From: Tremella fuciformis
Lineage: Eukaryota > Basidiomycota > Tremellomycetes > Tremellales > Tremellaceae
Length of the DNA stretch: 64,000 nucleotides
Direction: 5' to 3'
Assembly (NCBI GenBank): GCA_032768795.1
Contig: CP136495.1
Span: 1,180,501-1,244,500 of the forward strand
Shown: piece by piece, positions 2,842-45,032 of the stretch
Layout: each line of letters starts with the position of its first letter
Numbering within the stretch: position 1 is the first letter of the stretch
Notes under the pieces: generated by a model
What the model was told of the DNA's origin: nothing
Database searches by the model: none
Seen by the model: only the letters and a program-made list of their open reading frames with translations
Translations under genes and position numbers: made by a program

Positions 2842-5196
2842 ATGCCCTCGCCAGTCTCCCGTGAGGCGTCCTCCTCCGCCCCTTTACCCAACCCCTATCT
2901 GGGCGGCGCCGGCGTTGACTATGGCAACATCTCGTTCTATCCGCGCTCGCCATCGCCCAGCCATGGTCGACAAAACTCTCGCGCCAGCGTGCGCTCCGCC
3001 GTGCGCCCGTCCCCGTCCCCGTCCGTCTTAGCTAGCGAAGGGGGTTCTGTCACATCCGCGTCAGGCGAATCAACGCAGCTGCAGCTGGCGAAGATCATTC
3101 AGCTCCTCGCCAGCAAAGATGTCAGCATGCTGCACCTGAATGATCGCCAAAAATCCATGGCTCATCGCGTTGAGGAGACTTCGATTGCCTTGGACGGGGT
3201 CATCGAGCGCTTGTCCTCCAAGATGGACTTGATTCCGGAGCTATCCGAGCAGCTGGCGCTGCAGAACGCCCACCACGAGGCTCTTGCGAAGAACTTGGAT
3301 ACGAAGATGGAGAGTTTCGGCACGGCCCTCAGCGGCGTCAAAGCTGCCAGCTCGACAATCGCTACATTGCTTGACGCCGGCTTGCGCACATTAGGCGGCC
3401 GCATGGACGCCATGGAGGCGGCACATCAAGTGGCGCTGAGCAAGATCGATCAACTTCTCATTGCGGTGACTGAGATGCGGAAACCCCATGCAGAGACCAT
3501 TTCGCGCCGGTCTCAATCCCGGCTTCCAACGCCTGTCGAGTCGCCTCCTTCTGTACGGACAGCCTCTCCACGTCTCTCGCTTCCGGCGTCGCCTCATCGC
3601 CAATCTACATCGACTACGTCTCAGACGGACGACAACGGTGATGGCCGGCCACACAAGCGACCGAGGACACTAGAGAGTTCTGCGGGCCCGCAGAGCGACC
3701 GCCCATCTCAAGGGTCAGCCACGACTTACCCAAGCGCTTCACGAAGTTCTCTTTCGCCAGCTGCGCCTCCGCTCGCCGGCCATGCTATGCTGCCCATTCC
3801 AGTCGAAGATAATGGAGAACCGAACGACGCTGCGGATATGGGTCACGCTCCACTGGACAGTCACCAAGCGGAGTTTGTTGACTCCAGTCCTGAGAACCTG
3901 TTTTTCGATGATCGAGGGCTGGATGATGTCGAAGCTCTGCTTCGTTCGGAGTCCCCTTCGTCGTCGCATGGCGGGGATGACGCTGGAGACGAGGCTGTCG
4001 ATGACGATGGCCCTGCAGGCGGACAAGGACACAACAATGGAGAGCCGTTGGATGTTCGGGAGGCAACGCCAACCGCGGGCGAGGGCCAGAGGGAAACATC
4101 TGAAGCAGAGGACCAGAAGTGAGATATGCTCGGCGACTTTTCGCAAATGAAGCTGACTGGGAAGAGCGGGGCTAACCTCTTCGCCCAGTCAGAGCCAGAC
4201 GCCGGCTCTTACGCCTTCTGGCCAACGTCGCTTTCTGCGAGCGTCGCAGTCAATCGACTATCATAGCCACCCGTTGGACGGCGTTCTTCACCGCGGGGAC
4301 CTGAAGAAGCCCGGGAGCGCAAAACTGAAAGCTCAACTTCCGCCTGGACGCTCTCGCACCTTCTACGGGAAAGTGACCGTCAACGACAAATGCCTTCCCC
4401 CAAGTGACGGTTTGAAGAAAGGCCAGGGGATCTGGCCGAGGAAGGGCGAGTTCACGGTGAAAGGCAAGATCCAAGAGATCATCTGCGACTGCTGTAAGGG
4501 CCGAGTTCACTGGGCTTGTGCCGGTTTCCAAGACAAGGACGAGGTCGATCCTGACAGTTCCTGGGACTGCCCAGACTGTCAAGCTGCCATGGCCCGAGGA
4601 GTCGAGCGGGACGACATTGACATAGCCCCTCAGGATCGCTGCGTGCGATACAATTGTATTTGTCGGTAGGTGTCTTGGTCTCGAGATCAGCGATAGGGAT
4701 TGATCTGATCTTGCAGGGAGAAAAAGGCGACGATACGACAACCCCGGGACGAAGACCTGTATGTGGTCGAGCGAATCGTTGGGTGACTACGGATCCACCG
4801 AGGTGGCTGATCAGAGCTGATACTTCCAGTCGAAAAGCGATCGCGCGACGGCCTGACTTGTCTCGCGTATTCATGTATCTGGTCAAGTGGGCCGGCTGGC
4901 CAGTCAAGGACTCGACATGGGAAAAGGAAGACGAGTTTCCTCGTTCAAACAAGTTTGTCAAAGACTTCGTCCAGGCCGCCACAGCCGAAAGTGTGCCACT
5001 CCGACTCGCCGTGTCCATCTTGGCCGAAGCCCGACCGTATCTGGATGACAAGGGCAACTTCAAGTTCAAGCGCGAGTGGGAAAGCGAAGAACCTTCGTCA
5101 GTGGCTAGACCGGCGGATAGGACCGAGACGAGCCAGACGCAAGAGTCAGCTGCTACCTCTTCCGCAGCAGGACCATCTTCGCATACAGCCTCATGA
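2842..5196 (+). CDS. Chromodomain protein with PHD-like cysteine cluster
   Basis: Predicted 728-residue chromatin protein. Exons: 2842-4118, 4189-4665, 4717-4782, 4830-5196 (phases consistent). Residues 1-425 are Ser/Pro-rich and disordered, with a predicted helical stretch at about 80-195 (repeated KIIQLL, RVEET and LDGVIERL patterns) and an acidic end. Around 522-560 lies a PHD-like cluster: CDCC, then HWAC, then WDCPDC. A chromodomain follows at about 588-655: DLYVVERIVG, then FMYLVKWAGWP and STWEKEDEF. It includes the aromatic residues Y, W and W that make a methyl-lysine cage in this family. It probably reads histone methylation, but the modification cannot be named from sequence. Oddity: the first Cys pair of a canonical PHD finger is not visible before the cluster, while a CIC motif lies after it. 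No orthologue recognised. Confidence 0.8.
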
Positions 5197-5569: not shown

Positions 5570-7995
5570 CTACTCTGGGACGTACGAGGCGGCCGCGCGG
5601 TCGTCGGACAATGCGCGCCAATATTCGAGCATGAGAAGGAACATGAACGACTGCATGTCCTCCATCCTGCGCGTCAGCCTGCTGCGAAGACAGACCCTTT
5701 TCATCGACGAGCGCACCTCCACTTCTCCTGCGTGAACTTGTAGCCGTTTTCCGCAATCTCCTTGGCGAGATCATCCCTTCCTGGAGAACTCCCGTCCGGA
5801 GCGCCATTGAAGAAAGCGAGTATGTCGTACATGTCCGAATAGTCCACTTTGACAGGCACATAGTGGTACCACGGGACGAGGAGGTCGCTGAACCATTCCG
5901 GATACAGCGTGGACTTGAGCACGACGTTGTTGCCTGCGAGCAACCGGCGGAATCGAGACGACCAGCCGTTGCCGTCAACGTCGACGACGTACTTATACTT
6001 GACCGCATCTTCTTTGCGCACGCGCGGCATGAAGTCTATTTCGGCGGCCATCTCATCGCAGGAGCCATCCTCTTCCGTGCACTATTGTCAGCACAACGAG
6101 GAAACCGGGCAATTTATGAGCTGGCGTACGTGCATCGGTCCGCCGCTGATTCCCACATCGAACCATGCTTCGTTCATCTCGTTGACTGAGAATTTTTCGG
6201 TCGTCCACTTGCCATCTTTCTGCACGAGAAGAGGGGCCACTGATGTGGATTTGTTGTGTGTGAGAAAGTGAAGTCGCTCGCGCTGACATCCCTTCCATGG
6301 TATCTTGGCGTTGTGCCAACAGCCTGTAGCTGTACCCCGCTGGCAGGTCAGCTCGAGGTCTTCGAGAACCGTGACTACGGGACATACCCAAAACACCTTG
6401 TGGAGCGGCTTCTCCTCCCATGGGATATACTCCACGTTTTCTATACCGTCAGTGTCCGTTTCGAGCAGTCCAATCACATGACAATGCTCACCCCAAACAC
6501 CGTCCAACGGCGCTCCAACTAGATCCGAGCTGTGGATATACTGTATGTCAGCTGTAATCCCCTCACATACTCCAAGCATACCCTACAGGTGGCCACGGCT
6601 AGTCCAAGCTCACCCGCGGCTCGGTGCTTCTCCGAGTGGATCATTATGTTGTGCTGTCGTGTTAACCGAGCTTCGCCTCACACAGACGGAGGATGTCGCT
6701 CACCTGCGACAAGAGATCAGGATTGTAGCATACATCAACCGACTTGACGAAGTCGGCGATGAAAGTTTTGCCACCTAGACGTCAGCCATTCGGGCGCGCT
6801 GCCCACGGGTACTAACCGTGCTCAGTCTCATCGGAAGAGACCACTGGCAACATATCATTCAGCACGACATCGGTATTTCGGGTCTTCAAGGGAGCATCGT
6901 CCGGACATGACCACATCCTTCCGTTGAGCTGAGTGGATGTTGCGGCAAACGAGATCACTCACCAGCCGTAAGTCCACCGCATGGCCTGTTCGGCTTTGTG
7001 CAAGGCAGCCGCTGGCCATTCTGGGGGTCAGCTCATTCGAGACCCTTGAAGCGGGCCAATTCACGTTTGCCTGCTCTTCCCAGAGTCTCTCCTCTTTCCC
7101 GGAAAGATGAGTGCACCATGCCAGAAGGGGCATCATCGATGTTGAACGCGAGCTCGAGGGGCGGGTCATGCTCGAACATGGCTCTGGGCAGAAGGGGAAG
7201 GATAGGCAAGAGTAGCTCTAGCGTGTTGCTACAAGTCAGCCTAGCCCAGTAGCAGCTCGTTCCTACTGACTTGCACCTGAACTGCCACGCCCCGTCACCG
7301 TGCAGCTTGACCATACCTCTCCCTTTCTTATGTGCTTGCTTCGGATTGTACGGTTCCCATGCAGCACACTCGGTCCCCTCATCCCCCATGCCGGGCGGGA
7401 CGAGCTCGAACGTGAAACGGTGATCCTTGTCCCGCTCTGCCCTAGCTCGTTCGCGCAGTGTAGCTGCGGGATGGCTCAGATACTGGATGATCGGGTTAAC
7501 CGCTAGCTGCAGCAGAGGAGGGACTGGCGGGGGATGCGGTTCAGGCGAGCGCTGGGTGAAGGCGAACCACCGCTCGAATCCTCTTGGGGGTTTCATGCCA
7601 AATGCCCTCTCGTACTCGTCGGCGGCATCGTCGACTGACTGGACCTCGGAGATGTGCGCCTCCATCGCCGCCACTTGCTTCTTTGCCCGGGCGATGAGCC
7701 GCTCGATGGGGTGCTGCTTGTCCCCGGGCGTAAACGTGGTGAGCCCCGTGGGATCGATGTCGACATCATATGAGCGCTCATGACCTGCGGCCGGACCGAC
7801 CTGCCCTTTGTGCGCCGTCGACTTGAACTTGGGCAGTGAGAGATGCCCGCCATTCCTGCTTGACGAGTGCAGCTGCGAGGTCGAGGGGGCGGTCGAGCTG
7901 GGAAATAGGAGCTGATGGAGGAGAAGGAGCGACAGGGCGCCAATGACGAGGTATGCCAGCCGAGGAAGGCGGGGAAGTGCCAGCCGGCGAGTCAT
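5570..7995 (-). CDS. CAP10-like glycosyltransferase, family GT90
   Basis: Predicted 669-residue type II membrane glycosyltransferase. The family includes the cryptococcal CAP10 group and the xylosyltransferase Cxt1; GT90 enzymes work in the Golgi on capsule, cell-wall or protein glycans. Exons, in coding order: 7277-7995, 7065-7228, 6963-7020, 6817-6917, 6704-6774, 6582-6653, 6388-6540, 6130-6339, 5717-6081, 5570-5666. The sum is exactly 2010 nt. Seen: a short basic N-terminus followed by one hydrophobic segment (residues about 13-30, signal anchor), a stem region, then the GT90 blocks WRGTATGCWHN, KIPWKGCQRERLHF, YKYVVDVDGNGWSSRF and WYHYVPVKVDYSDMYDIL. The C-terminal block SFMFLLMLEYWRAL ends the protein. 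Sugar donor and acceptor cannot be told from sequence. A role in capsule-like polysaccharide is plausible but inferred. Confidence 0.9.
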
Positions 7996-28900: not shown

Positions 28901-31856
28901 TCTCAGGCCTTGGAATGGAGCGTATGGAAGGTCTCTTGCCCGATGTCATCAACAGCACAAGCTCTCCGCGAGCGTATGTCCGAGAAGGATTCATCTCCTT
29001 GCTGGTCTACCTCCCTGCGACATTCGGACATCGCTTCGCCCCCCATCTTGGCAGGGTCATTCCTCCTATTCTGAACGGCCTGGCGGATGATTCCGAATAT
29101 GGTGAGCGGTCTCGGATTGGCACAGAAAGTGGCTAATCAGCAGTCCGGGAAGCCTCCATGCGAGCGGGCAAAATGATCATCGCCAACTATTCAAGCAAGG
29201 CTATTGACCTTCTCTTGCCAGAGCTCGAGAAAGGAATGTTGGATGGCTCGTGGCGCATCAGGGCATGTCATGATCTAGCTATCGGATCGGCCTCTGCTGA
29301 CTTTACAGCAATCCTCCATCTCACTCACAGGCGAGCTCTTGTACAGAGTTACCGGTATCAGTGGCAAGGTGGAGCTGGAAGAGGAGGAGGTCCCCGCTCA
29401 CGGCGCCGACAACGCACGCAAGGCCCTGCTGGAAGCGCTGGGACCGGAGCGTCGAGACAGAGTGCTGGCTACCCTCTACATTGTGCGCCAGGACAACGTC
29501 AGCACAGTCAGACAGGCCTCCATCCATATCTGGAAAGCTTTGGTCCAAAGTGAGCAGGGCTAGAGGGGCTTATTATATCAAACTGACAGCAGACACCCCG
29601 AGGACTACTCGCGAGATTCTGCCAGTGCTCATGCAGCTCATCATGGGTCTCCTTGGAGATCCGCATGTCGAACAGCAGGAGGTGAGATACTTCATGAATT
29701 GCCCTCACCGGCTGCTGACATCAGACCGCCTCTCGTACACTTGGAGAGCTGTGCAGGAAGAACGGCGAGCGAATCTTCGCGGAGATTGTGCCCATTTTGC
29801 AGAAGGCTATCTCTGCGCCGGATGTGGCCACTCGAGAAGGGGCGTGTCTTGCCTTTGCAGATGTCATGTCAGTGCTCAAACTGAAAAGGGACGAGAAACG
29901 CTGACATTGCAGGGCTGCTTCCAACAAAGACGCCATGGCCGATCACGAGGGAGCTATCATATCTGCCATTCGCTCAGCGCTCGTTGACGAGGAGGCCTCA
30001 GTCCGATCGGCCGCGGCCAAAACATTCGACGCGATGCAGCACTTCATCGGCAACAAGGCTGTCGATCAGACTATCCCTACATTGCTGGAGGCTATGCGCA
30101 ACCCAGGTTCGGGTTCCGAGACTGCTCTACAGGCGCTCAAGGAGGTCATGAGCGTGAGTCGAGCTCATCCCGAGGTTGCGGCTAGGCTAATTGCCAGGTG
30201 CGCGCCAATAGCGTCTTCCCCGTCCTTATTCCGACCCTCATCGCACAACCTATCACCGCCTTCAATGCTCGCGCTTTGGGATCTTTGGTCAAGGTCGCTG
30301 GCAGCGCGCTCAACCGACGACTGGACACTCTACTCAGTGCCCTGGTCAAATCGCTCGAGACCGAGAAGTCCGAAAATATCCTCATCGAGCTCAAGGGTGC
30401 CATTGAGTCTCTCCTCTCTGCGGTCACAGATTCAGACGGCGTACACCTGCTTGAGATGCTGCTGATGGAGTGGTGAGTCCATCTTTGGACCTGTCAGATA
30501 AGAGAAACTCAGCCAGTAGGGCGAAAGATCGCAATGCCACTCGTCGAGCGACGGCGTGCAACATATTCGGCACCTTCTGCCAAGTCTCATCGGCAGATAC
30601 TTCCGACTACCGGGTTGACTGGATCCGCATCCTGATAACCCTCTTTGCTGACCCGAACGAGGTTGTGGTAGATGCCGCATGGGAATCCCTCGAAAAGTTT
30701 GTCAAAACCGTTCCGCAAGACGATCTCAAGGATCTTGTCGTGCCCCTACGTCGCACCATGGAGTCCACTACATCGGCTGGAACGAATGTACCAGGCTTCT
30801 GCCGTCCCAAAGGCGTGCAATCCATCGTTCCGATTCTCCTGGCGGGTGTCCTCTCCGGCACGCAGGAACAAAGAGAGCAGGCTGCTCTTGGTGTTGGAGA
30901 TGTGGTGCAGCGCACCTCGGAGGCGGCAATCAAGCCGTATATCATCCAGCTGACGGGTCCTCTCATTCGTGTCATTTCGGGCGCAGGCATCGCCCCTCAG
31001 ATCAAGACCGCCATGTGCGTCGCACAACATCATGGAGCTTCGTTGCTGACTGCAGTCTTTCCGCCTTGACAGTCTTACTGGAAGAGGTTCCGCAGTTGGT
31101 CAGACCTTTCCACCCTCAATTGACAAGGACATTCGTCAAGAGCGCGTCGGATCCCGCTGCTCTGTCGATTCGGAACAGAGCTGCAGCTGGCCTGGGGGAG
31201 TTAATGAAACACCAGGTGGGTCTCGTCGCAGTGGGATCTCCGGCAGGTGCTGACATTCAAGCCTCGTGTAGACCCTCTGATCACCGAGCTTATCGGTGGC
31301 GTCAAGGCCGGCGACAAAGACATCGCTCCATCCATGGCTCAAGCTCTCGCTGCCGTGTGCAACAGTGCAGGAAAGAATATCGGCACTGCGGCCAAGGCGG
31401 CAATTATCGATCTTGTCGAAGACGCTTTCCTGGCTCAGGCAAATGGTCGGCTCGCTCATTACGATGCTTGGGCTGCCGGAGCTGATATGGCAGAAAACTA
31501 CAACGTGGCCATCGCCAAAGTCGTTGCAGGTCTAGCAAAGCACGATGCCACAAACATACAGTCCATAGTCGAGTGAGTCCGTCTCGAGCAAAGCGATCCG
31601 ACTCTGACTCTTCAGCACCTTCTTGGCCGCCCCTACCCCACCTTTGGCTCTCGTCAGTGTCACGATCTTGACGTGTCTGGAGGATTGCCCAGATGTGTTC
31701 TTTGACTTAGACGTGGCCCAGGTTATAGCCGCAAAGGTATCGTCGAGTGTTGCGTCGGACTCGTCTAGCATAGCGCGTCCAGCAAGGGAGGCTCGAGATC
31801 TGTTAAGGAAGGGAAAGTACGGGGAAGACCCTGCAGTGCAGGCTGCTCTCAGATGA
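22952..31856 (+). CDS. GCN1: Gcn1, HEAT-repeat activator of the Gcn2 eIF2-alpha kinase
   Basis: Ribosome-bound scaffold of the general amino-acid control pathway; it passes the stalled-ribosome signal to Gcn2. Exons: 22952-23264, 23309-23519, 23564-23978, 24025-24093, 24141-24252, 24297-25167, 25213-25859, 25900-27425, 27474-27838, 27885-27916, 27961-27976, 28018-28206, 28252-28611, 28656-29101, 29144-29262, 29309-29549, 29593-29681, 29725-29867, 29913-30153, 30198-30472, 30520-31014, 31056-31215, 31262-31572, 31616-31856. The sum is 7887 nt, 2628 residues (yeast 2672). HEAT repeats run throughout. Characteristic blocks: [62 protein letters not shown] and [14 protein letters not shown]. The intron at 29263-29308 has a GC donor, and exon 11 is 16 nt. 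Confidence 0.96.
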
Positions 31857-32580
31857 CGGAGTAGATGGAAGAGATGGTTGTCTTGCATTGCATATAGCGC
31901 ATGCATAGCGCTTGAAGCTGACAGGGGTATGGCCCGGCGCTATGATAAGGTGGCTTGCGGCATCTGAATTCGTTCAGTCTCATTCGTACCAACAACCGGA
32001 TCCAAGGAAGACGACAGACCAACCAAGCTGCTTCATCTCTGCGACGACGGGTTGTTTGGATGCGGATACATGCAACCCATGCTGTGCGAAGTGATCGGCT
32101 CTCACTGATCATATGACCGAAAAGTCGCCAGGGAGGATACAATGACACCATTCGACACAGGGATTTCTCCTCAATGCCGTGCTCCAGGCGGATCCCGGCG
32201 CATCGCACTGCGAGCGATCAATGTGGGTGAATGAAGCTTGCGAGCCAGCAAAAAGACCATGGGAGAGCGTCGAGGAGGTGGGTGGACGGTACTGACGCCG
32301 TTCTGAGGTGGATGAAATGGATGGAGGCAGCTGTCGGGACGCGCTGATCAGGTCGAAAGAGGTCTTTGCAACCGGTTGATTGAGAAATAAGGGGAGGGGC
32401 AAGGGGAAGCGGGTGACGTGACTCCTGAACCTCAGTGAGACTGAAAGGAGCATGCCCCAACTCACTGGGTTATGCACTGACTGGGCTTTCCAGCTTCATC
32501 GGCGCGATTGGAGCTGCACGAGTTTGATTACCAGAGAGGAGGGGGTGGCAACGACTCCGACCGCGCCAAGGACGATGTCG
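31857..32580. other. Convergent 3' region, GCN1 / first Cys-cluster paralogue
   Basis: About 720 bp between converging stops. No supported gene. It marks the transition from the compact housekeeping block to the loosely packed paralogue array. Confidence 0.45.
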
Positions 32581-33387
32581 TCACGGCAATTCGCACTTGA
32601 TCTGAGGCATCATCGATCTAGAGAGACGATGGGAATGCCTGCTGAATTGTTTGGATGCTCCATGTCTTATATGCTCACTGTCGACGGTTTCGTCTTTGGG
32701 AACTGTCAGACGGTGCGTCACATCGATGCCGGTCTGGTCGAGCGAAGCAGCTTTGGGTTTCTTAGCGTCAACAGCCCGGGTGGCCGAGGAGGAGGCCGTA
32801 GCAGGTGAGGCGCTGCTCGAGATGGGGGTTTTGGTTGTAGTTGATGAGCGTGTGAAGGAACTGCGCGCTGTGTCGATACGAGCGCTCAATACTCTTTCCT
32901 CTTCGGCCGCGAGAGAGTTCGAGCAAGTCGCTTTCGCGATCTGCCGCAGATGATACATGTCCGCCAGAAAGTCGAGATTGAGCTCGTGACCAAAGCTATT
33001 TTGAAAGGCAAAGACGCATGGCACTCGCCAGTTGTGTCGGTTCAATGGGTACAGGACGAATCCCTCGTCGGCGGCATCGCAGCGATCGCACCGGATCCCG
33101 GGCTCCATGCTGCATAGCCGACATGGTAAGAACGCGAAAGGACCGTAGTAGGAGTCTCCGAGTAGACCTCGCCAGAGACAGGATTGGCCCAGCGACCGAC
33201 AGCGAAGGCAGGTGAATATGGGATCTTTATGCCTGCCGGATGAGCTGTTTCTATTGTTGGACTACAGGATTGGAGAGGCTGAGAGCGAAGACGGATTCTT
33301 CAGGCTTGACTAAAACCGAGCAAAGACTCACTTATACCAAGCGCCATTGCCTTTTCCCCTAATCTTCTCAAACCCTAGAGACTCCAT
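32581..33387 (-). CDS. Cys-cluster family protein, copy A (short, inverted copy)
   Basis: Function unknown; 235 residues from exons 33332-33387 and 32581-33232. I assign it by resemblance to the three copies downstream. It starts ME-x-LGF, has an intron in phase 2 at the same place, then HKDPIFTC-x2-C-x6-C-LW-x16-C-x2-C-x7-C-x2-C (residues about 20-70). Here the segment between the second and third cysteines is 6 residues instead of 10, and the final C-x-C is C-x2-C. It lacks the long Pro/Ser linker: a conserved W and the helical module (VFAFQNSFGHELNLDFL) follow at about residue 87. A Ser/Thr-rich tail ends the protein. The start at 33387 matches the paralogues; in-frame ATGs at 33390 and 33399 are possible. 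A diverged but apparently intact member, or a minimal version of the family. Confidence 0.7.
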
Positions 33388-34478
33388 CATAGATGGCATT
33401 GCTAAGAATGTACAGTTCTCGCAACTCGGACATGAGCAGAAAGACGGCGAAGTACGACAAGAAGTCAGCAGCGCGCAGCCAGAGATCCGTGCACCCAGAT
33501 GAATGTGGCGGTTTTATTAGCACTTGGTCTCCTGGGAATTGCCACCCAAACAACGCACCGCTTCCGCCAAGCCTTGTCTCTTGTGTCCATTGTGTGTTCT
33601 CAGCTGCTCGTCCACCATGGCCCCCGGCTCGCTCGGCGGTGCTCCGCCGATCGTGCCGACACTGTCAATGGGGCTGTCTCGATGTGGCATTAAGCGATGT
33701 GTGGCAGTCTGGCCAGGGTCGGCCGAGCTCGGTCGGACCACTACCTTTCGGGGTCTTTCACTAGATCTGCGTGACGGGTCGGGGCAAGGAGTGCATTTCG
33801 ATGTCGCGGATCTGCCGCGTATAGTACGTCGGCCGGTGGGGAAGGGCAGAGCCTCAGGGTCCAGGCCCTCCAGAGAGATCGCAGTCCAGCGTTTCGAGCG
33901 CCTTGAAAGATCTTTGCGCTCATGGTGCAGGTAACTTTCGGATCGACGTTGTCACTCGCTCGTGAAAGTCCAGACTATCACTCTCCCCTCCTATCTGAAA
34001 GGATAACTCTTTCGGGTCCGCCGTCGGCACCGTCGCTACTGCCGTCCCTCCCGCCTTCAATCTCTGCAATCGGAGCCTTTCCAACGGTCCCTCTGGCTGT
34101 GCGTGGGAGGGAATCTGCCAGTGAAAAGGGCCGTTTCCAGGAAGACGAGCGGGATACTCTGCGGTCTATAGCGCCCGACTCGCGGTGTCCCGCCGATGGG
34201 ACCTTGGAGTCCAGCGATACGGGGCGCAGATCGTGGTTTCAGTGATGGATCATCGCGCGAGAGATCCAAGTGCTGCCTGCCGAGATCGGTTAGTGTCATG
34301 CACGCGCCTAGCTCGACAGCTGGGTTTGGGAATTCCTTTTTGTATCTTGTCTCACACCCTGACCGCCGCCTCCTTTCTGCTGGACGACGCGCATCGATAT
34401 GACTCAAATAAGGGCAGTGGGCGAGCCGACACCGCAACGGCACCCCCGCACCGACTTCACAAACTGCATGTGCTGCAA
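33388..34478. other. Divergent region between copies A and B
   Basis: About 1.1 kb separating two divergent members of the paralogous family. Overlapping open frames on both strands show no resemblance to anything and no consistent splicing. A shared promoter is the simplest reading. Confidence 0.4.
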
Positions 34479-35916
34479 ATGGAGGCTCTTGGATTCAGGC
34501 GGGCGGCGCGGAGCGACGGTGTGCTGTACTGGTAAGTGATTAAGTGAGGGGTAGACATCGGTGGCTGAGCGCTGCAGGCATCCCTCCGACCCTTTCTTCA
34601 CCTGTCAAAGATGTGGCGACCTGAGCCGAGCAGCGGATGAGGCGTGTTTGTGGCCATCGCTCATCGCTCTCAAAGGCGACAAGCACCACTATCGTACGAG
34701 AAAATGCTTCGGCTGCGCTCAAGCGGGTGTGCCGTGCTCTTGTGCGGTCGACCCGAAAGACTACGATTTCGTCATCGAGCCGGGGCAAAATACGGTCATC
34801 AAGGACTGGGCAGGCCGAACGATCTCGATGGATGTGTTGAGGGAGTCTCATCAGAGAATCATCGACGCGAAACGCCTTGAAGGGAGAGAGCGAGAGCGAA
34901 CAGGACGCAAGAGAAAGCGCGCAAATGTACAAGACGAGGACGCCCCACAGCCACTCCCGACTACAGCCTTTAATCCCGCCGCAGCCTGGCAAGGACCCGG
35001 ACCCTCAATCAGAGGAGCTGTCAGGCAGGGGCAAAACGAATTTCGAAGCGCTGAACAGTCGCATCACCAGAGGTCGACTTCAAGTACCAGCGAGGTCAAC
35101 TCTAGCAAGTTTTCACCGCTCCACAGGCCGAGTCACAATTTGACCATAGAAGCAAGTCCTCGCCCGCCGTCTACGTCCCCCTTGCCGTCTCTATGGCGTC
35201 ATCGACATTCAGCACGTACTCCTGACGTACTCCGAACGAGTCCCCCTGCACGACCATCCGGCATGATCCTTCCACCTATACTCGCACCTGGGACCGGACC
35301 CTCCGAGATACCCACCTTGCCGAGATTAGTGGCAGCACCCCCCGAGGTCCGCCAGGCCACGGAAGCCCTGTATCTCTGCGATTCCACTTCTCCCGGCGGG
35401 CACGGAGATGGAGAATGGCAAGCCCGCGCGAAGTTCGTTCGTGATGCCGAGCAGCTTTCCGGAGTACCTCTTACACAGAGCTTCCTACACGCTTCTAGGA
35501 CTCAGAAAGCCGATTGTCGCGCCGAGCATCACCTACTTGCGGCTGATAACCTCATGCGGAGGTCACGACTTGACCTAGAAGCCGCTCATCGCAAATTGAC
35601 GGGATCCGGACCTATTTTCCGCGGAGGCTCGGGAGAACGACCTGTACTACTGCCTCCTGGTGTCGAGCAGGACGAAGAGGGGCGATACATGGGAGCATGG
35701 CGAGAGCGAGCGAATGGAGAATTGGAGCTGCAGACGCGACGCCTCCAATCTCTAAGAGAGCAGTTCGAATTCTATGGCAATCCTGAAGATGCTGGAGCCC
35801 GCGAGGCTGATTCTCACTTGCGGGATGGCAATGACAGCGCGAAAAGCGATGTCAACAGGGAACGTCTTGAAAGCCAAGGCACTCAATGTTTGGACCCCAG
35901 ATCGTACCACCGATAG
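34479..35916 (+). CDS. Cys-cluster family protein, copy B
   Basis: Function unknown; 463 residues from exons 34479-34531 and 34578-35916. The 17-codon first exon (ME-x-LGF...LYW) splices in phase 2 onto HPSDPFFTC. Cys cluster, residues 19-73: H-P-S-D-P-F-F-T-C-x2-C-x10-C-L-W-x17-K-C-x2-C-x6-C-S-C, followed by a DFV-x-EPG block. A basic patch (RERERTGRKRKRA) at about 120-133 could be a nuclear localisation signal. The region from about 140 to 297 is Pro/Ser/His-rich and probably disordered. A conserved module begins with W298 (FVRDAEQLSGVPLTQSFL) and continues as a helix rich in Leu, Ala and Arg to about 365. The spacing of seven cysteines plus one histidine suggests zinc binding, perhaps a DNA-binding or protein-binding domain; this is inference. 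Confidence 0.8.
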
Positions 35917-37735
35917 GTCATCTGAGCACGCGCCGGACTGGACTTACAAAGAGAGAAGGCGGCCATTGCTGAGTCGGGCAGGAGTGGCATGATCAGTAGG
36001 GGACGGAACGACGTCTGTGCTACACATAGAGGATACATATGCAAGCTTCGATGCAGTTCGATATGCGCCTGGGTGCCCGAACAGCAGGGAGGGAAAAGGG
36101 GTGTACCAGTACCGATGAGTGAGCGCATACCGAGTGAAGGATGGTCTACGGACTTGAGGCAGGCCCGCTGTCTGCAGTGCCTTTCTGGATGCTATTCTGT
36201 CCGCCCTCACCTTTTTGTTATGACTAGCATCCTTGATGTGATCCTCAAATCCTTGATTCAAGGTGGCGCTGGCGCTGTGGCACTCCAAGAAAAGGTGCCA
36301 CATTGGGAAGATGAATGCTCCGTGCTCCAGCATTGATGCCGTTATAGCCGTGGCGCAACCCTGAGCGGCGTCGACTCGTGCGCTACTGAGCCGAATCACA
36401 AACAACACATGTGATGCTTGAGGCACCTGATCCTTGTTTACCTTCCGGAGTGGCTGACCGAGGTCGTTACCGACACCAAAGGCTTCTCCGTGAGTGGAAA
36501 GGACGCGGACGCAAGCAAGTTCCTGAGCTATCCGCGTCCTGCCCGGTAGGCCGATATTTGCTGCACTTGACTCACCAGCTCCGCCTCCGACGTGCCACGT
36601 TCATGCGATGCCATGATGATCAGGACGAACATGTCGAGACGGCGAGCTGAGCGATGTTTGCCTGCCCCTCGTCCCTAACCCCTGCCTGAGCGCCTGAACT
36701 GCACATGTCTGGAAGGCAAAAACGGGTTGATCCATGGACACACGGCTACACAGGAACTGTCAACAGCGGGCTCACCTCTGACTCCCAATGTTTGCTTCTC
36801 CCTCTCTGTCCAATATAAGCAAAGGGCGCGTTGAGAGGTATGTCATTCACGGTGTTGGCCTTCAGATTTTGCAATCTTGTCGGCCTATGATATCTGCTTC
36901 CCCTACATGGCGCTTGGTCCGTGGTTCTCACCGCGTTTCGTACACACTCGAGGAACATGCGGGCGCAGAGAGGACGAATGGTGGACCAAGGGCCTACATT
37001 GTACCTCTCGGTGTTGTCCCTGAAGAGTGAGTTCGGTTAACGAGAGCAGAATGGTTTGCTTTGATCGAATGTATGAGGTCGCCTCTTGCGACACAAGTCC
37101 CCGTAAGCTCAACCTGCCGCTACACCTCGCGAGGATATGCCACTCCCGAGGCTATGAAATGGGACCTGATATGAGCACTGCTACCGCCCTGTTCGGAAAT
37201 GAACTCACACCGTTGATTGAAAGGCTCGAATTCCTGCCTCTTGAATAGCAGAACAGCCCTCTTGAAGGACCGCGACCGCGTCGCGCGCGGATCTCACTCA
37301 AGCGAAGCCTGGTGCTGCTTTGCTTGGATGTCAGGCGCGTGTTCGCGGTGGACGGAGACGGAGACGGGCATCAATTCCTTTTCCTTTGAGTAAGCCCGTC
37401 GCGGAGAGCTTGTCGCGGTTTGTTACTGCTCGGCACCCACGCCGGCATCCATCGGATTCAGGATGTATGCGATGCTTCAACGCGTTCGGGGGATCGTCAG
37501 CAGCCTTGTCGCCATTTGATTGCCATTTGAGAGGGGTTATAGATGATGACGAGTAAGATTCAAGGTTGAGGGAGAAGTTTGACGACAGTCAATTTGATGA
37601 AGATCCGTGAACCCTTCCTTGAATTCCTTTCTCGATCCGCTTGATGCCGCACTTACAACCGTCAGTCTCGCTGTCAGCCTTCATCCCCTCACGTCTCCAC
37701 CGCCCCGCCTCGATTCATGGCTCGCAAGCAAGACT
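35917..37735. other. Gene-poor spacer between copies B and C
   Basis: About 1.8 kb with no supported gene. Short open frames near 36411-36650, 36788-37030 and 37027-37248 lack recognisable domains, and I could not link them by plausible introns. Possible relics of decayed copies, long leaders or non-coding transcripts; none demonstrated. Confidence 0.4.
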
Positions 37736-38960
37736 ATGGAGAAGTTTGGATTCCTAAAAGCAGACTCCGGAGATGATAAGGATTTATACTGGTGGGCTTT
37801 CCTCCCTCTCAACCCGAGCTCACTGTAACCCCAGGCATCCCACCGATCCATTCTTCACCTGTCAACGCTGCAAAGAGCTCTTCCCTCACACCAAAGACGT
37901 CTGCCTCTGGCCTCCGCTTGTGCCGCTACGCTGGTCAACCGACCGGTACAGGAGGAGGAAATGTTGGCAATGTGCTCAAGCGGGCGTCTTATGTTCGTGC
38001 ACGGTCAAAGGGCTCGACTTCAGTTTGTGGCTACGCCCGGGGCGAAACGCCTCTCTAATGAATGCACACGGGGAGGAGATCAAGCGGGAAGTGGTGGAGG
38101 AGGCTCACAGGAACCGCCTCGCGGTGCGCAGGCTGGACGGCGGCGACTGGGACGACGGAGTACACTGGGACGAGGCACCGAGCACGGCTTCAACGGCTAG
38201 AGGCTTGTTCTTGGACGGCGCGAGGACCGCTCCTCTCAGCTCCCAGCATTCGCTCGCAATGGGCGAACGCAGTCGCGGGAGCCAACATCACGATCTCGAA
38301 CACACCGTTCCTCAGATGGGCAACCGGGGTGGCGCTCCTGGTTCTATCACATTCAACACCTTCCACGGCCAATCTCCCTTTTCCCCACGCATGTCGCCGC
38401 CTGTGCCCCTCTCCGCACCGGTCCCAAGACATCCTCGGAGACTCTCGCCCGACTCGCCGCCTCTCAGAGATACCGCCCCTGCCAATGCCATCCGCCCACC
38501 CCTTGCCTCAGCGTCGTCCCATGACCTGGATGTGGCCTCAAGGCTATTACCTCCGATTCGTGACGCTCGATCTGCCCGGCCACCCGGCACTCAGGCTTCA
38601 ACATCTCCTCCTGCTCAGACCGAGCTGACATCCGTTGTGCTCGAAACGTCTCAAGAGGAGCCTTGGCCCGAGCGAACGGTTTTCATCCGTGACGCTCAAG
38701 CCTTGAGCGGTGTTCCTCTCACACGCTCCTACCTGCTTGCGATGGCGGCCCCAACCCCCTCGGTTGAGCGAGAAGTTGCGAGGCACCTCAACAACGCGGA
38801 GATGCTGTTGCGAGAAGCTCGCAGAGAGCTGGAGCTGGCGGACCAATGCCTGGCAGAATCTACAGGGAAGTCCCCCAGCATAGAAGACGACGGCCAAGCG
38901 GGGGAGGGATCGCCGGACAGCTCGGTTTCACCAGCATCGGCCAGGGACTGCGCAACATGA
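37736..38960 (+). CDS. Cys-cluster family protein, copy C
   Basis: Function unknown; 393 residues from exons 37736-37791 and 37835-38960. Exon 1 (ME-x-FGF...LYW) and its phase-2 intron match copies A, B and D. Cys cluster, residues 20-74: HPTDPFFTC-x2-C-x10-C-LW-x17-K-C-WQ-C-x6-C-S-C, then the DFSLWLRPGRN block. Linker of about 200 residues, rich in Pro, Ser and Arg. The conserved module starts at W296 (FIRDAQALSGVPLTRSYL) and is followed by a charged helix (AEMLLREARRELELADQ). It is closest to copy B in the cluster (C-AQAGV-x-C-SC is shared). Upstream, an out-of-frame ATG at 37717 precedes the start and could act as a small upstream reading frame. Confidence 0.8.
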
Positions 38961-40906
38961 CTCATGTACTTGGCACCCATGTTGTGCCGGGGCGGTGCCC
39001 GATCGCAAGAGACGCAGACAGAATGGTGCGTCCTCACATCATAGATTCAGCCAGGAACTGAAGTTCCTCCAGTTGCCGACCGCCAGCGCCGTTATACCGG
39101 GCATCCGTAAGAGGATCGACTTCGTGCTGCATGATTTGAAGCTCTCTGTGCTGCGTCTCCTGTCAGCACTGACCTTTCTACTGACCCTTGGTTTTGCTGG
39201 GGCTAACCCCGCACACCATTTCCACCTCTCGCCAATGCGTCTGGGACCCCTCGTCCATGCTACCCACCCTTATTTCACCGAGACCGGCCCACAAGAAGCT
39301 GACCGTCGCCATCAGACGACCGGGAGAGTGTCATTGCTGCGCGGTCATTCAGCCATAGAGCATGGTTGCCGAGCTCGCACGTTCAGCATGTCCCGAGGTC
39401 GACGTGAAATCGCAACAGCGCTCCACACAGCGACAGGAGGATGTGGCGGCTCGTTTGTGGCACTTTCAGAGACGCTTATTTCATACTCCACGTCGTTTCG
39501 TCTGACATGAGATATTCACCTCCTTACACTGACGACGAAGAAGAGACTCCCAAAGTGATAGGCGCTGAAGAGCAATGTCATCGCCAGCATTCATCAAGAC
39601 TCCACGCCACGCTGCCATGCCCGCGAACACAAGGACAATCACCATGCGGACAAAAAGGCCCAAAGGATGCACTGCCCTGTTTGACCGAGCGGCCGACGCT
39701 CGGTCGCCGGATGTCCGACAGTTGTTGGACTCTAAGGACCTGGCTCGGTATCAATTGACTTACACAGGGAGCAAGCCCCCAGGATAGCCAAGCGCAGTCT
39801 CATACGGCCTCGTGCTCCGGCTCACATCGCGGCCCTGATTTGAGGTGATTGCGCCGAGCAGGAAAGCCTGATGACTAAGCCTATGTTTCTCACTCTCACA
39901 CGGGCAGCGACCATGTTCATCAATGGCGTTTCTGATTGATTCTCACTGACGGAGTCGGCGGCGAGCCCGTTCTTACCTGAACGTCAATCAGGTTCCTCTC
40001 CTGCCCCCAACCCCTGGCGTTGTCCTTTCTGGAGACTCTCCTTCCATAAGTTCGTTCCTTCAGAGGATTGAGATTGGTATTCTGTGTGCGGTGGCCGTAT
40101 CTGGGTGCGAGCATCAAGTGTGGACGCGTAGGCATGCCCCTGCCATCCAAATCTTCCTTTTGTACTGCCAATCAACCCGGTCCACCTGGAAAAGAAGGTC
40201 TCGACCCTTCTGCGCCACCCCGAGCGGTGCCTCGACCCCTCGGCACGGATGTGGCTTGATCGTTGATCGTGACTGGTTATCAATTGCCTCTGATGATAGT
40301 GGGGGGACTCGCTTTACCCACCTCAGTTGATCGGACTGTAAAAGAGGAGCGCGGGGCGATAGGGCGGCATAGGGATGAGGGATCGAAACTTGTAGAACTA
40401 CCGCCAGCCTCTTCACGAAATTTGCGATGAGGAAAGCGGGTGCCGTGTTGTGATCACAGTCTATTGATCGAGGCGAGGAGAGGGCAGGGTTGGGAGCGCG
40501 AGAGGCGGGAGATGTTTTGCGCGGTCCGTATCCTTGAGAAGGAAGTAACTCGACAAGCGAGCGAGTACGAGCTCAAAGCCTTGGCGTGATGGGGTGTTGG
40601 ACTCCTCCGTGATCCGTCCGTCGTTTTGCATGCGGGGCTCTGGGGCTGGAAGAGATCAGTCATGGCCTATGTGTGCTTCCAGGACGCTGAAAGTGAGAGT
40701 CAGAGGAATAGCAGAGAGAATCGAAACTACAATGGCGCGATGGCCGCACGCGCCGCGCTTGACCCTCTTTCCTCGCTTGTTCCTTTCTCTCTATCCGGCC
40801 AGTCTTACGCCTCCCATCAACTGTCCGGCCAGCCTGACACCACCCATCAACCGTTCCTCAAGCCCGCATCTTATGAAGTCGAGGTACAATGCCCCAAAAC
40901 GCGAGC
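38961..40906. other. Gene-poor spacer between copies C and D
   Basis: About 1.9 kb with no supported gene, only short frames without domains (for example 38995-39510 and 39575-39787). The last 120 bp form the pyrimidine-rich leader of copy D and contain a short tandem repeat. Confidence 0.4.
40794..40853 (+). repeat. 30-bp tandem duplication in the leader of copy D
   Basis: Two adjacent 30-nt units, 40794-40823 and 40824-40853, each starting TCCGGCCAG and containing CCCATCAAC. They match at 25 of 30 positions by eye. They lie 54-113 bp upstream of the inferred start. Confidence 0.8.
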
Positions 40907-42417
40907 ATGGAGGAGCTCGGTTTCATCAAGGTAGATCAAGCCCGAGGGAAGGAGAAAGAACTCTGGTGGTAAGCCCCTTTTGTCAAGTCCGGATCATTTC
41001 GCTCAGCTTACCATCAAGGCATCCGACAGACCCCTTCTTCACCTGCGAGCGATGCAAGACACTGGACGACGGGACCGGGGAGCAGTGCCTCTGGCAGCGA
41101 TTGTATCTGATGATGGGAGAGACCGAGCTGTACCGCAAGAAAAAGTGCTGGCGCTGCGTCAAGGCAGGTGTCCCGTGCTCATGCGCCATATCGACGATCG
41201 ATTTCAACCTCGTCTTGCGGCCCGGGAGACCTGTCTTTCTAAGAGGCTGGGACGGGCAGGAGGTCAGTCTCGCGCAGGTCGTGGCAGCGTACAATGAGCG
41301 CGTGGGGCAGCGACCAAATGAAGAGGGTGGCAGAAGCCCAAGGGAGGTCGATCAACGCTTGCTTGCTGGGCCAAGTGAAGAGAGCAATAATCAGGCATGC
41401 TTTAATCAGCCCCGCTCGACCCTTGCTCCCGATGTGAGATTCGCAATACGGCCGTCCGTCCAGCGACCACTCTCCCCCTACGCACTCGCCAGGCCGCTCA
41501 TCCATCCCATGCCGCCCTTCACCCATCGTGGCCCTCGACCACCATTGCTACCTCGTCCGGCGATCTTGCCTATCGCCCATCGCCCGGCCGTTCCGACACT
41601 TCCATCGCCACAAACCTCTGCTCAGATCCGCCCACCAGTCTTTGCTCCGACCGCAGATCTCCCGGGATCGTCAATCTCCGTCCCGAGTGCCGTGCACACG
41701 GCGCCAATCAGCGCCTCCCAACGGACATCTTCCGTGCACGCCGCGTCTCACGGAGAAGCCGCGCCCTCTACGCAACCAGCAGAGCCAAAAGCGAGAACGC
41801 GCGAGCCCGATTGGTGGTATCACCGAGTGTCGTTCATCCGAGAGGCACAAGAAGTCGGTGGTGTTCCCCTCATCAACACTTTCCTGAGTGCGACAGGAGG
41901 GAACGCGGGAGAAAATGGCACCCTGCGGCTCTCGGACCATCTGAAGAACATCAAACGACTATTGAGCCAAGCTGGCAGGCAGCTGGATCTGGTCATTGAC
42001 CTCAAAAGGGACGATGATACAGTGTCGTATACCGAGGTAGACTTGGAGAGGGCTGTTCGGCTGCGCACTCACCTAGCGCAGATGGAGATGGACATTATGG
42101 CAGTGGGCCCAGAAAGAACTCAGCTAGCTGCAGTCGACGACGCGGCTTCACATATCACCTCTGGCGGTGCTCCTACGAACATCGAGGTCACCGAGAATGC
42201 ATGGCCGTCTCTAGGGCCAAAACGGGAGAACCCAGCAGATCAAGTTCTGTGGCGCAGGGAGCTAGAGGAATCGATCGCGGCGCTGCGACAAGAGGTGCGA
42301 GTGTTGCAGGCGAGGGGGGCTGGGAGTGACGGTGGATCACAGCAGGATTGTGAGATCATTGCCGCTCATATCGAGCACGCCAGCCTTACTGATATGCAGA
42401 ACATGCGCAGATCGTAA
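40907..42417 (+). CDS. Cys-cluster family protein, copy D
   Basis: Function unknown; 486 residues from exons 40907-40968 and 41019-42417. The first exon begins ME-x-LGF and ends LWW, then splices in phase 2 onto HPTDPFFTC. Cys cluster, residues 22-76: C-x2-C-x10-C-LW-x17-K-C-WR-C-x6-C-S-C, then DFNLVLRPGRP. Linker of about 210 residues (Pro/Ser/Arg). Conserved module from W287 (FIREAQEVGGVPLINTFL) into helices, then an extra C-terminal coiled-coil-like segment (LEESIAALRQEVRVLQARG) absent from the others. The acceptor used is CATCAAG at 41018, because it restores the family motif and follows a CTTAC branch-like site. A CAG at 41004-41006 would add four residues in frame. An in-frame ATG at 40889 would add six residues at the N-terminus. 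Confidence 0.8.
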
Positions 42418-43257
42418 TGATAGCTAGTGATGGCTTGCAGCCTTCACTCGGCACGTCATGTCCCCAGCCCGATACAGTACCATGCGTCATGGGTCGCATC
42501 GACCAGCTTACAGCGGTGAATAAAGCCATCTGGGCGTGACGGATGGGGGAAATCCGAGAGCCATAGCAATTTCCCCTTACCAGACTTTTGTATCCCATCC
42601 GCTTGATCAACCAGCACTCATTGGCATGCACCTTTCTTCCCAAAGGCAAAGACCCATGATGAGACGTGACAGCCCGCCCTTGCCGGTAGGCCCCCACCCA
42701 GAGCTGCCGTAAATGAGCAAAACAGTTACAATGGACTGGGAAGTAAACGGCCCTTGGACACGGCCGGCAACATGCGAGACGAGAGAGGTCCCAAGGACGT
42801 TTACATGGGCGTGAAAGGATCCTCGGCTGACCAGTACAAAAGGCATATTTCCTCGTTTCAAAGTGAGCAAATTCCACTCGCATGCGCGGTGATCTCTCAA
42901 GGGCATGGCGAGCGGTCTTTTGGATCTTCTCCTGCTTCCACGCGAAAAGTGAAGTGCAGGACTTTCCACAACCGGAGCAAGGAGCTACGAGTACTTTGTA
43001 TGTTGCAAGGGCCTCCGCACACAGCGGATTGCGGCTGTACCGCACGGCTTACTATGACCTTGTTGCTTTGACTCGCAAAAAATTCAAGCTGCAAGTTACA
43101 GCCCAGTGTTGCAAGACACGAAGCGTGCAGCTGCCAGACCCTCGAGATGCTCCTTTAGGGGAGAGCGGCTTTAGCGTGATGAGCATCTTGGAACCTCAGC
43201 GCGTGAGCAGCATACAACATGACGCAATCGCTAACAAACTGGCTACGATAAGCATGG
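42418..43257. other. Convergent region, copy D / MID1
   Basis: About 840 bp between converging stops. A 219-codon frame on the minus strand (42386-43045) crosses most of it and overlaps the end of copy D, but it has no recognisable domain. I treat it as unproven. Confidence 0.4.
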
Positions 43258-45032
43258 TCATGGCCCGTTGCACCATGAGTTGCCATACAAGTCGCTCCCC
43301 GATATGCCCGTTGCCGAACTCCCATCCCCAACGTCGTTGTCATGACCATAAAAGCCATAACTTTGATTGGCCGTGCTGACAGAACGCTGGGGGCACCGAA
43401 ACAGAAGCGTAGCGGGACAAGCCCTATCTGCGGCATTGCAGGAGGAGAGACAAGGCAGAAGCTCGGTATAGTCATAAGTGTACACGTCGGCCAGTGCGCT
43501 CATCCGCGGGTCGTCTGACGTCCTGTTGACTGCGAATACTGGCGGGCGGTAGCCGGCGTCTTTGATCTCGTCCGAGTCAACCGAGGATGATGCGGACGAG
43601 TTGGCGGTTGTCGGCGAAGTGCATCGAGGAATGGTAACGCGACACACCCAATCTCGATAGGCGGTATAGCAATCGAGACACGATGATACGTGCGAGTAGT
43701 AGTCCCGCCCGCACGCGGTGGTGCCAAGGGAAACGGAGAACGAGTTGAGCGATTGCGTGATGAGGTCGGCTAGAGTGTCTGGGAGAGACTGGACAGGAGA
43801 GGTGGTCGATATCAGATTGCCCGCCGGAGAGACAGCGGTGGTCGAGTTGACGGGTAGGGGAGCGGCGTATGCCACAGAGGGGCAATATGAGGTAGGCAGC
43901 AGTAGCTGGCAGGGAAAGTCGGCTAGCCATTAGTCCCCGTCGGGAAGAAAGATGGGGGCCGGGGCTCACCTTCTTTGGTCGTGAACCACATTGGCTGGCT
44001 CATTGTTCCTCCCGAGTCCACGACAAAAGCTGTGTAATTCGTGGCCCCGTTATCGAGCTGCCCGACGACCCATGTTGTGCAAAATCCCTCTTCGCTGCCC
44101 AAGGCGGTCCATTGGGGGGTCGTTGTATTGTAGATGAGCGTCTCGGATCCAGCTCGACCACTGGTCGTATTAGCCGCCTGGACAGCACACTGCGATTGGC
44201 CGAGGCCCTGGGTCGTAGGAGAGTTTGAGGTTGGTACGACAATCACGGAAACGTCTTCGTTGAAATCGCCTGTTGACGATGAAGCTGCTGACGAGTACGA
44301 AGGGAAGACCATCTGTGCCAAGGGCAGGGTGTAATTCGGATACGTCGGCTGGGTCTGTGGCGATACCAAAAGCAGGGGAGAGAATATCATGGCGCTGTCC
44401 GCGGTAGAGTCGCCGAAGAAAGGCGACTGAGGAGATACGGCATGAAGCGGTTCTGCGGATCAGTCGGGCTTGTTCGGAAGAGATGTCGCCTCACTATCTC
44501 CCGAGACGCCGAGCTGGACGACGATATTCCCGTCGCCCGTCAGATCCGTCGTATCTATGCCAGTGTCCGACAGCCCGAGACCGATGAGCATTTGAGCCGA
44601 CACCGCATCATCGCTGTCTGTCACCGTCCAATTGGCAAAGCCTTCAGTCCAAGCGACATTCCAATTGCTACCAGACCTGCTACGTCGATTCGGGCTCACT
44701 GAGCTTCCTCCCGAGGTCTGATCCTTGACAGACCGGGTGCCGAGTATGAAGGAGGCCGGATCCGCAGTAGACAATCGGACAGTCGGAATAAGCGAGTCGT
44801 TCGAGGAGAGCGAACAGATGTTAAGAGTGATGTACAGGGAAGTCGACTCGGGTAGATCCACGACTACAGCGGGGCTTGATAGATTCAGTGCCGGGAGTGA
44901 CACGAGAGATGGGAGCGTCGAGATTGAGACCGTGGGCGTTGCTGTCGCTGCGGCGGTACTCGAGGTGGACGTGGAGGACTGGGCGAGACATGACTCTATG
45001 AGTGTTGCCCAGAGCCAGTATAGATAAAGCAT
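43258..45032 (-). CDS. MID1: Mid1, regulatory subunit of the stretch-activated plasma-membrane calcium channel
   Basis: Secreted/membrane glycoprotein that works with the channel subunit Cch1 in calcium entry during stress. Exons, in coding order: 44495-45032, 43970-44452, 43258-43922 (561 residues; yeast 548). Seen: an N-terminal hydrophobic signal ending near LIESCLAQ, many N-x-S/T sites, and the C-terminal cysteine-rich region typical of Mid1 (SSCLDCYTAYRDWVCRV, IPRC, LPCLSSCNAADRACPATL, FRCP) ending SDLYGNSWCNGP. The exon 1-2 junction removes an in-frame stop and restores GDKPLHAVSPQSPFFGDST. Transcribed toward copy D of the Cys-cluster array. Confidence 0.92.

Follow-up and report, generated by a model that had tools for sequence, protein, structure and literature searches.

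Four neighbouring genes of Tremella fuciformis, lying between GCN1 and MID1, resemble one another and were originally predicted to form a locally amplified, fast-evolving family without a name, acting perhaps as regulators or as allorecognition or defence factors. What kind of proteins do these genes encode, and how old is the array? Our analysis indicates that it is a real and old orphan family, probably a working one, with an undescribed Cys domain. The best explanation, to which we give a probability of about 0.4, is an old, lineage-restricted family of nuclear regulators, Zn2Cys6-like in the way they work, membership in Zn2Cys6 itself not being established. Positions refer to the window, that is, the whole 64,000-nucleotide stretch of DNA that was analysed, unless a contig or locus handle precedes them; database proteins are called P0001 to P0006.

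Four spliced genes between GCN1 and MID1

In our gene models, four intact spliced open reading frames, A to D, lie exactly within 32581-42417. Both flanks were confirmed by Pfam: GCN1 lies to the left (Gcn1_N and HEAT_GCN1_fung, with HEAT-repeat frames reaching about 31485) and MID1 to the right (Mid1, minus strand, frame from 43258). As predicted, one gene is inverted and three are tandem: A (239 aa) is on the minus strand, and B, C and D (463, 393 and 486 aa) are on the plus strand. The expected tiny first exon (53-68 nt) and phase-2 intron (99, 46, 43 and 50 nt in A, B, C and D) were found in all four models, followed by a single, long second exon with its frame intact. Third-position G+C is 0.56-0.63 in A-D, similar to the 0.59-0.68 of neighbouring conserved frames. 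The features are as follows.

32581..33232, minus: gene A exon 2 and stop, with the whole Cys domain and without the C-terminal module
32941..33231, minus: gene A Cys domain (H, seven Cys; C-x2-C-x6-C-L-W, then C-x2-C-x7-C-x2-C)
33332..33399, minus: gene A exon 1 (MPSMMESLGF...), start ATG at 33399 or internal MES; joined to exon 2 in P0002
33400..34478, no strand: divergent A-B intergenic stretch of 1,079 bases, a possible shared promoter
34479..34531, plus: gene B exon 1 (MEALGF...)
34578..35916, plus: gene B exon 2 and stop; counterpart P0001
34579..34860, plus: gene B Cys domain (C-x2-C-x10-C-L-W, then C-x2-C-x6-C-x-C)
34906..34920, plus: gene B basic run RKRKR, putatively nuclear-localisation-like, present in P0001 too
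35410..35607, plus: gene B C-terminal module
37736..37791, plus: gene C exon 1 (MEKFGF...), joined to exon 2 in P0003
37835..38960, plus: gene C exon 2 and stop; counterpart P0006
37836..38117, plus: gene C Cys domain
38658..38861, plus: gene C C-terminal module
40907..40968, plus: gene D exon 1 (MEELGF...)
41019..42417, plus: gene D exon 2 and stop; counterpart P0004, with P0005 a fragment of the same gene
41020..41301, plus: gene D Cys domain
41809..42003, plus: gene D C-terminal module

Eight further intergenic, overlapping and flanking frames had no Pfam match, Rfam had none on 31000-44000, and, apart from the coding motif common to the genes, a repeat search of the array returned only short pairs attributable to chance. 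At 40791-40850, directly upstream of gene D, a 30-nt unit occurs twice in tandem, its copies being 83% alike. Elsewhere, the window carries a tRNA-Arg (CCG) at 6796-6872 on the minus strand.

Two of the gene models are matched by database proteins joined across the predicted splice. P0002, from a contig of 1,749 bases, differs from A at 4 of 239 residues and omits precisely the 99-nt intron, in which there are in-frame stops; P0003, from a contig of 2,076 bases, differs from C at 1 of 393 residues and omits precisely the 43-nt intron. Because these proteins lack exactly the predicted introns, A and C appear to be transcribed and spliced, and the simplest reading of the two source contigs is that they would be assembled transcripts. 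The 5' extensions of both are contiguous with the genome, and the start of P0003 is a GTG, as written by a bacterial-style gene caller. P0005 corresponds to 205 residues of D, 5 of them changed, and does not span the D intron; for B, the protein-collection searches gave no same-species database protein among their matches. The 5' extension of P0002 tracks the genome from 33513 (33400-33513, minus), its first 11 residues being unaligned in that frame, and there may be an indel between P0002 and the genome in the leader of A.

A shared Cys/His domain

All four genes encode ME-x-[LF]-GF, H-x(1-2)-D-P-x-F-T-C-x2-C, C-L-W and C-x2-C-x(6-7)-C-x(1-2)-C, the conserved set of the N-terminal domain being one His, seven Cys, D-P-x-F-T-C, C-L-W and one Gly. 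The His and seven Cys are kept in all seven whole-domain sequences (A, B, C, D, P0001, P0002 and P0003), and it is this pattern that makes the proposed metal binding plausible. The DP is not strictly fixed: P0002, another sequence of A, has DS.

The proteins are not equally close. In a search within the window, B, C and D matched one another with E values of 6e-29 to 1e-35, C and D being 35 and 30% identical to B over the alignment. With a profile built from B, C, D and P0001, A reached 25.7 bits, whereas the highest-scoring of 20,000 shuffled versions of A reached 12.7 (the output covered 15,894 of the 20,001 sequences); exon 2 of A by itself scored 12.3 bits in the same run (E 0.0056 among 799 window frames). 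By these scores A is genuinely, if remotely, related to B, C and D, with much of the support coming from the first exon.

The C-terminal W...F-x-[RF] module, which had been ascribed to all four proteins, belongs to three of them. In B, C and D it reads W-x2-R-x2-F-[IV]-R-[DE]-A-...-G-V-P-L-...-L-x-A, followed by a helix. A scored -1.1 bits on the profile of the module, rank 776 of the 1,132 reported among A and 2,000 shuffles; its W...F stretch, placed directly behind the Cys cluster, is a chance likeness. Between the two conserved parts, the linkers of B, C and D consist to 51-52% of P, S, T, A and G, with 3-3.5% aromatics. C, D and P0004 carry R/K-rich runs immediately before their fourth Cys, and the basic run RKRKR is confined to B and P0001, there being none at that place in A, C or D.

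Searches for named families and further relatives

That the family is unrecognised was borne out. Pfam searches with the four proteins, and then with 9 sequences, gave no credible match at E values up to 10, nor did NCBIfam with loose thresholds. HicA_toxin, the best entry at such thresholds (E 0.079 and 0.22), lay far under the family cut-off and was put down to chance. Sequence searches of the PDB gave best E values of 1.8 and 0.54, none credible; the designed 'Pizza' repeat proteins that a single-sequence PDB search returned for the B domain (E 4e-6) reflect a sum over repeats, with no single stretch passing.

The genome assembly comprises 28.14 Mb in 11 contigs, and searching it with the C-terminal module and with the domains of D, A and B revealed no fifth copy. 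The pattern D-P-x-F-x-C-x2-C occurs at seven places, four of them the array (a reversed control pattern occurs at two); of the other three, one is interrupted by a stop within the motif, and in two the motif does not continue. Two further candidates were rejected. A match of A on contig C8 (L009 1501-1812, C8:1353687-1353998; E 0.0013) ranked 4-6 among about 1,950 reported shuffles and did not align the Cys of A with Cys, so that we do not count it as a member; a match of the C-terminal module at C3:872613 (L043, E 0.054) scored like shuffles. The C8 frame is open over 120 aa, and its 3.3-kb locus also contains a Zn_clus match (C8:1354901-1354975). Separately, contigs C1, C9, C10 and C11 (L055-L058) start with telomere-like TAACCCCC-type repeats, and these TAACCCCC repeats resemble the telomere motif of Cryptococcus and Kwoniella, given as TAAC(4,5) in a published study (PMC11185503).

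The matches listed from 5.8 billion proteins all came from the same species or from one other genome (P0001-P0006). These searches rely on shared 5-residue words, and the candidates scored were the best-sharing 7,996 and 7,998 in two of them and all 5,724 in the third; the lineage restriction of the family is accordingly provisional. Six sequence words of the family retrieved no paper from the literature.

Comparison with the Zn2Cys6 cluster

A family with paired Cys clusters in a fungus raises the question of whether it is a true, highly divergent Zn2Cys6 family, in which two Cx2Cx(6-10)C halves, joined by a loop of 18-19 residues, would form one DNA-binding binuclear cluster. The genome is rich in such proteins: it holds at least 143 PF00172 matches (150 of 199 candidates were scored). 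None of the four array loci is among the 143 Zn_clus matches listed, and the array proteins had no Zn_clus match at E up to 10. At least four genome frames carry two close Zn_clus matches (C2:1326732-1327034, C5:523839-524111, C5:2351203-2351484 and C7:2285956-2286306), and double clusters of this kind may be frequent in the genome.

Profile comparison revealed a weak likeness. The profile of the family Cys domain scored 18.67 against 29 Zn_clus sequences of the genome, over only 11 columns around C-x2-C-x-x-x-G-V-x-C, and this exceeded all 40 Cys-preserving shuffles (best 17.95) and all 40 full shuffles (best 12.6). An earlier comparison (probability 51.6, score 25.7) was set aside, its row L037 having covered two clusters. 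We also scored the family's half-clusters for likeness to the second half of 28 Zn_clus sequences. The p values, uncorrected over eight segments and obtained with residues dropped from longer loops, were 0.001 for the second half of D, 0.004 for the first of D, 0.018 for the first of C and 0.023 for the first of A; the remaining ones were unremarkable (B second 0.042, C second 0.14, A second 0.19, B first 0.079). All are far from real: the medians of true halves were 21 and 15 bits, and the best family value was 6.1. Scored as first halves, the family segments gave -19.7 to -0.8 against a median of 21.2 for the 28 real ones; the basic first half is missing.

Spacing tells a similar story. Zn2Cys6 clusters are spaced C-x2-C-x6-C-x(5-12)-C-x2-C-x(6-8)-C; A has x6, a loop of 18 and x7, and B, C and D have x10, a loop of 19 and x6, so that none of the four fits, although the loop alone does not exclude them, since one of 30 fetched true matches (L024) has a 16-residue loop. 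On three tested features, the Pfam match, the spacing and the basic first half, Zn2Cys6 membership fails as judged from sequence. We consider a divergent Zn2Cys6 cluster unlikely. In its favour are the correct order of the two half-clusters, the first half of A, spaced exactly Cx2Cx6C, the weak profile and half-cluster likeness, the many Zn_clus matches of this genome and the long loop of L024. Against this, the four loci stand outside the listed matches and have no Pfam match, the R-x-R/K-K-x-K-C-D first half found in nearly all of the 28 compared is missing, neither half comes near real scores, B, C and D have x10 in place of x6, and the conserved His and seventh Cys are foreign to that cluster.

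The same eight residues suggest another arrangement, a zinc-structured protein-interaction or adaptor domain with two four-ligand sites made of the His and seven Cys, treble-clef or RING-like and without DNA binding. With exactly eight conserved potential ligands, two mononuclear sites are a better fit than a binuclear cluster of six Cys, and the absence of the basic DNA-contact residues of Zn2Cys6 points the same way; the Cys spacing differs from that of RING, and no Pfam match to RING or treble-clef families was obtained. We regard this alternative as somewhat unlikely. Structure prediction was of low confidence: two AlphaFold2 jobs, in which metals were not modelled, gave mean pLDDT values of 37.6 and 45.6. 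The first model, low in confidence overall, shows the C-terminal module in helices with pLDDT 53-72, and a fold comparison with this low-confidence model was uninformative.

An old array under uneven constraint

The array had been thought to reflect local amplification of a fast-evolving family. A recent amplification is not supported by the substitutions between the paralogues, whose synonymous sites are near saturation: pS in the N-terminal domain is 0.72, 0.76 and 0.83 against pN of 0.39, 0.39 and 0.34, and in the C-terminal module pS is 0.60-0.89 and pN 0.44-0.49. Moreover, a second genome contains counterparts of B, C and D, namely P0001, P0006 and P0004, from source contigs of 17,439, 17,439 and 17,239 bases. 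The near-saturated synonymous sites and these counterparts argue for an old family with no recent burst. Because the contigs of P0001 and P0006 are equally long, the counterparts of B and C are probably on one contig. The first exon of P0001 is read in another frame, as by a caller without introns. No counterpart of A was found in the second genome by the protein searches, the third of which left A out.

Fast evolution applies to the disordered linkers and not to the Cys domain. Identity of B to P0001 is 80/94 in the Cys domain, 78/171 in the linker, 45/66 in the C-terminal module and 45/102 in the tail; the corresponding values for D and P0004 are 54/64, 56/99, 44/64 and 45/129, and for C and P0006 44/48, 95/176, 54/68 and 6/22, with only the later part of the D and C Cys domains compared since P0004 and P0006 are incomplete at the start. 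Overall, the Cys domain (complete for B only) is 84-92% identical and the linkers 46-57%.

These data also bear on allorecognition or defence. A local cluster, a restricted distribution among the matches listed and fast-changing linkers would suit such factors; the duplications, in contrast, are old, with clear second-genome counterparts and a constrained Cys domain, and two same-species sequences differ little (4/239, 1/393 and 5/205 residues for A, C and D, one sequence each). A role in allorecognition or defence found no positive support and seems most improbable, and of the two functions originally proposed, regulation is the better guess.

A separate Cys-cluster frame beside a chromodomain

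D's best non-family match in the genome (E 0.0075) is a stop-containing frame on contig C3 (L006 1543-1764 minus, C3:2320627-2320848) with a C-x2-C-x9-C-x8-C-x2-C-x6-C cluster, then S-F. This different Cys-cluster frame occurs twice, the copy on C9 (L060 1501-1722, C9:761221-761442) being 60% identical to that on C3, and a chromodomain frame lies on the other strand of the same 3.2-kb C3 locus (Chromo E 2e-13). Chromodomains occur in some Ty3-like elements, and the frame is possibly mobile-element cargo. It resembles D in its second half-cluster C-x2-C-x6-C-S and the following Q-E-V-S stretch, and differs from the array family in its C-x2-C-x9-C-x8 spacing, in lacking D-P-x-F-T-C and C-L-W and in the stop behind the C3 cluster.

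Could the array be a domesticated mobile-element product, its Cys domain taken from such a transposon-borne frame? The position of D's best outside match beside a chromodomain frame, with a second copy on C9, speaks for this origin. The likeness is weak, however: the back-search to D gave E 0.206, and the C3 and C9 copies ranked 7 and 13 among the roughly 4,800-4,900 reported of 5,001 sequences, having come first in a run of 2,000 shuffles; furthermore, neither repeats nor Rfam matches mark the array as an element. We think a mobile-element origin very unlikely, and would treat the two frames as a lead towards one, their relation to the array not being established, and not as members.

Discussion

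In the nuclear-regulator reading, the N-terminal domain of one His and seven Cys would fold around zinc and would be the part that recognises DNA or chromatin. It is followed by a linker whose Pro/Ser-rich composition suggests disorder, and in B, C and D by a helical module that may serve dimerisation or partner binding. The proteins would be located in the nucleus, as the basic run of B and P0001 hints. A, which lacks the C-terminal module, could be a short form, placed divergently 1,079 bases from B, that modulates the others or competes with them.

This reading is supported by the His and seven Cys, present in all seven whole-domain sequences; by the far better conservation of the Cys domain and C-terminal module than of linker and tail; by the P/S/T/A/G-rich linkers, the basic runs and the spliced A and C proteins; and by a Zn_clus profile score above shuffles together with some of the half-cluster p values. 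It is weakened by the low-confidence AlphaFold2 models, the unremarkable half-clusters, a basic run in B only and the want of any Pfam match in B, C and D. A bolder version, which we find doubtful, would see in the Cys domain a small zinc domain of a new type, its two metal sites built from the one His and seven Cys. The regulator family using it would be old and so far known from a single fungal lineage, its syntenic array having been kept longer than synonymous sites record.

If the regulator reading is right, an undescribed metal-binding domain would be added to fungal regulators, and what looks like a recent lineage-specific burst would in fact be an old and constrained cluster. Four genes at one locus, deletable as a block, would also offer a clear case for studying the function of orphan tandem families. 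If the domain is instead a far-diverged Zn2Cys6, it would be an ordinary extension of a known family.

Two known systems invite comparison. Like the fungal Zn2Cys6 proteins (PF00172), the family combines an N-terminal Cx2C-based cluster with a disordered linker and a helical C-terminal part, and its half-clusters are weakly second-half-like; unlike them, it lacks a Pfam match and the R-x-R-K-x-K-C-D first half, is spaced x10 in B, C and D, has a loop of 18-19 residues and an extra conserved His and seventh Cys, and is only 239-486 aa long. It also resembles the tandem, taxonomically restricted genes of fungi in being a local paralogue array with no named domain and few database relatives. It departs from them in that its duplications are old, three of its paralogues are kept in a second genome and two of its domains are constrained.
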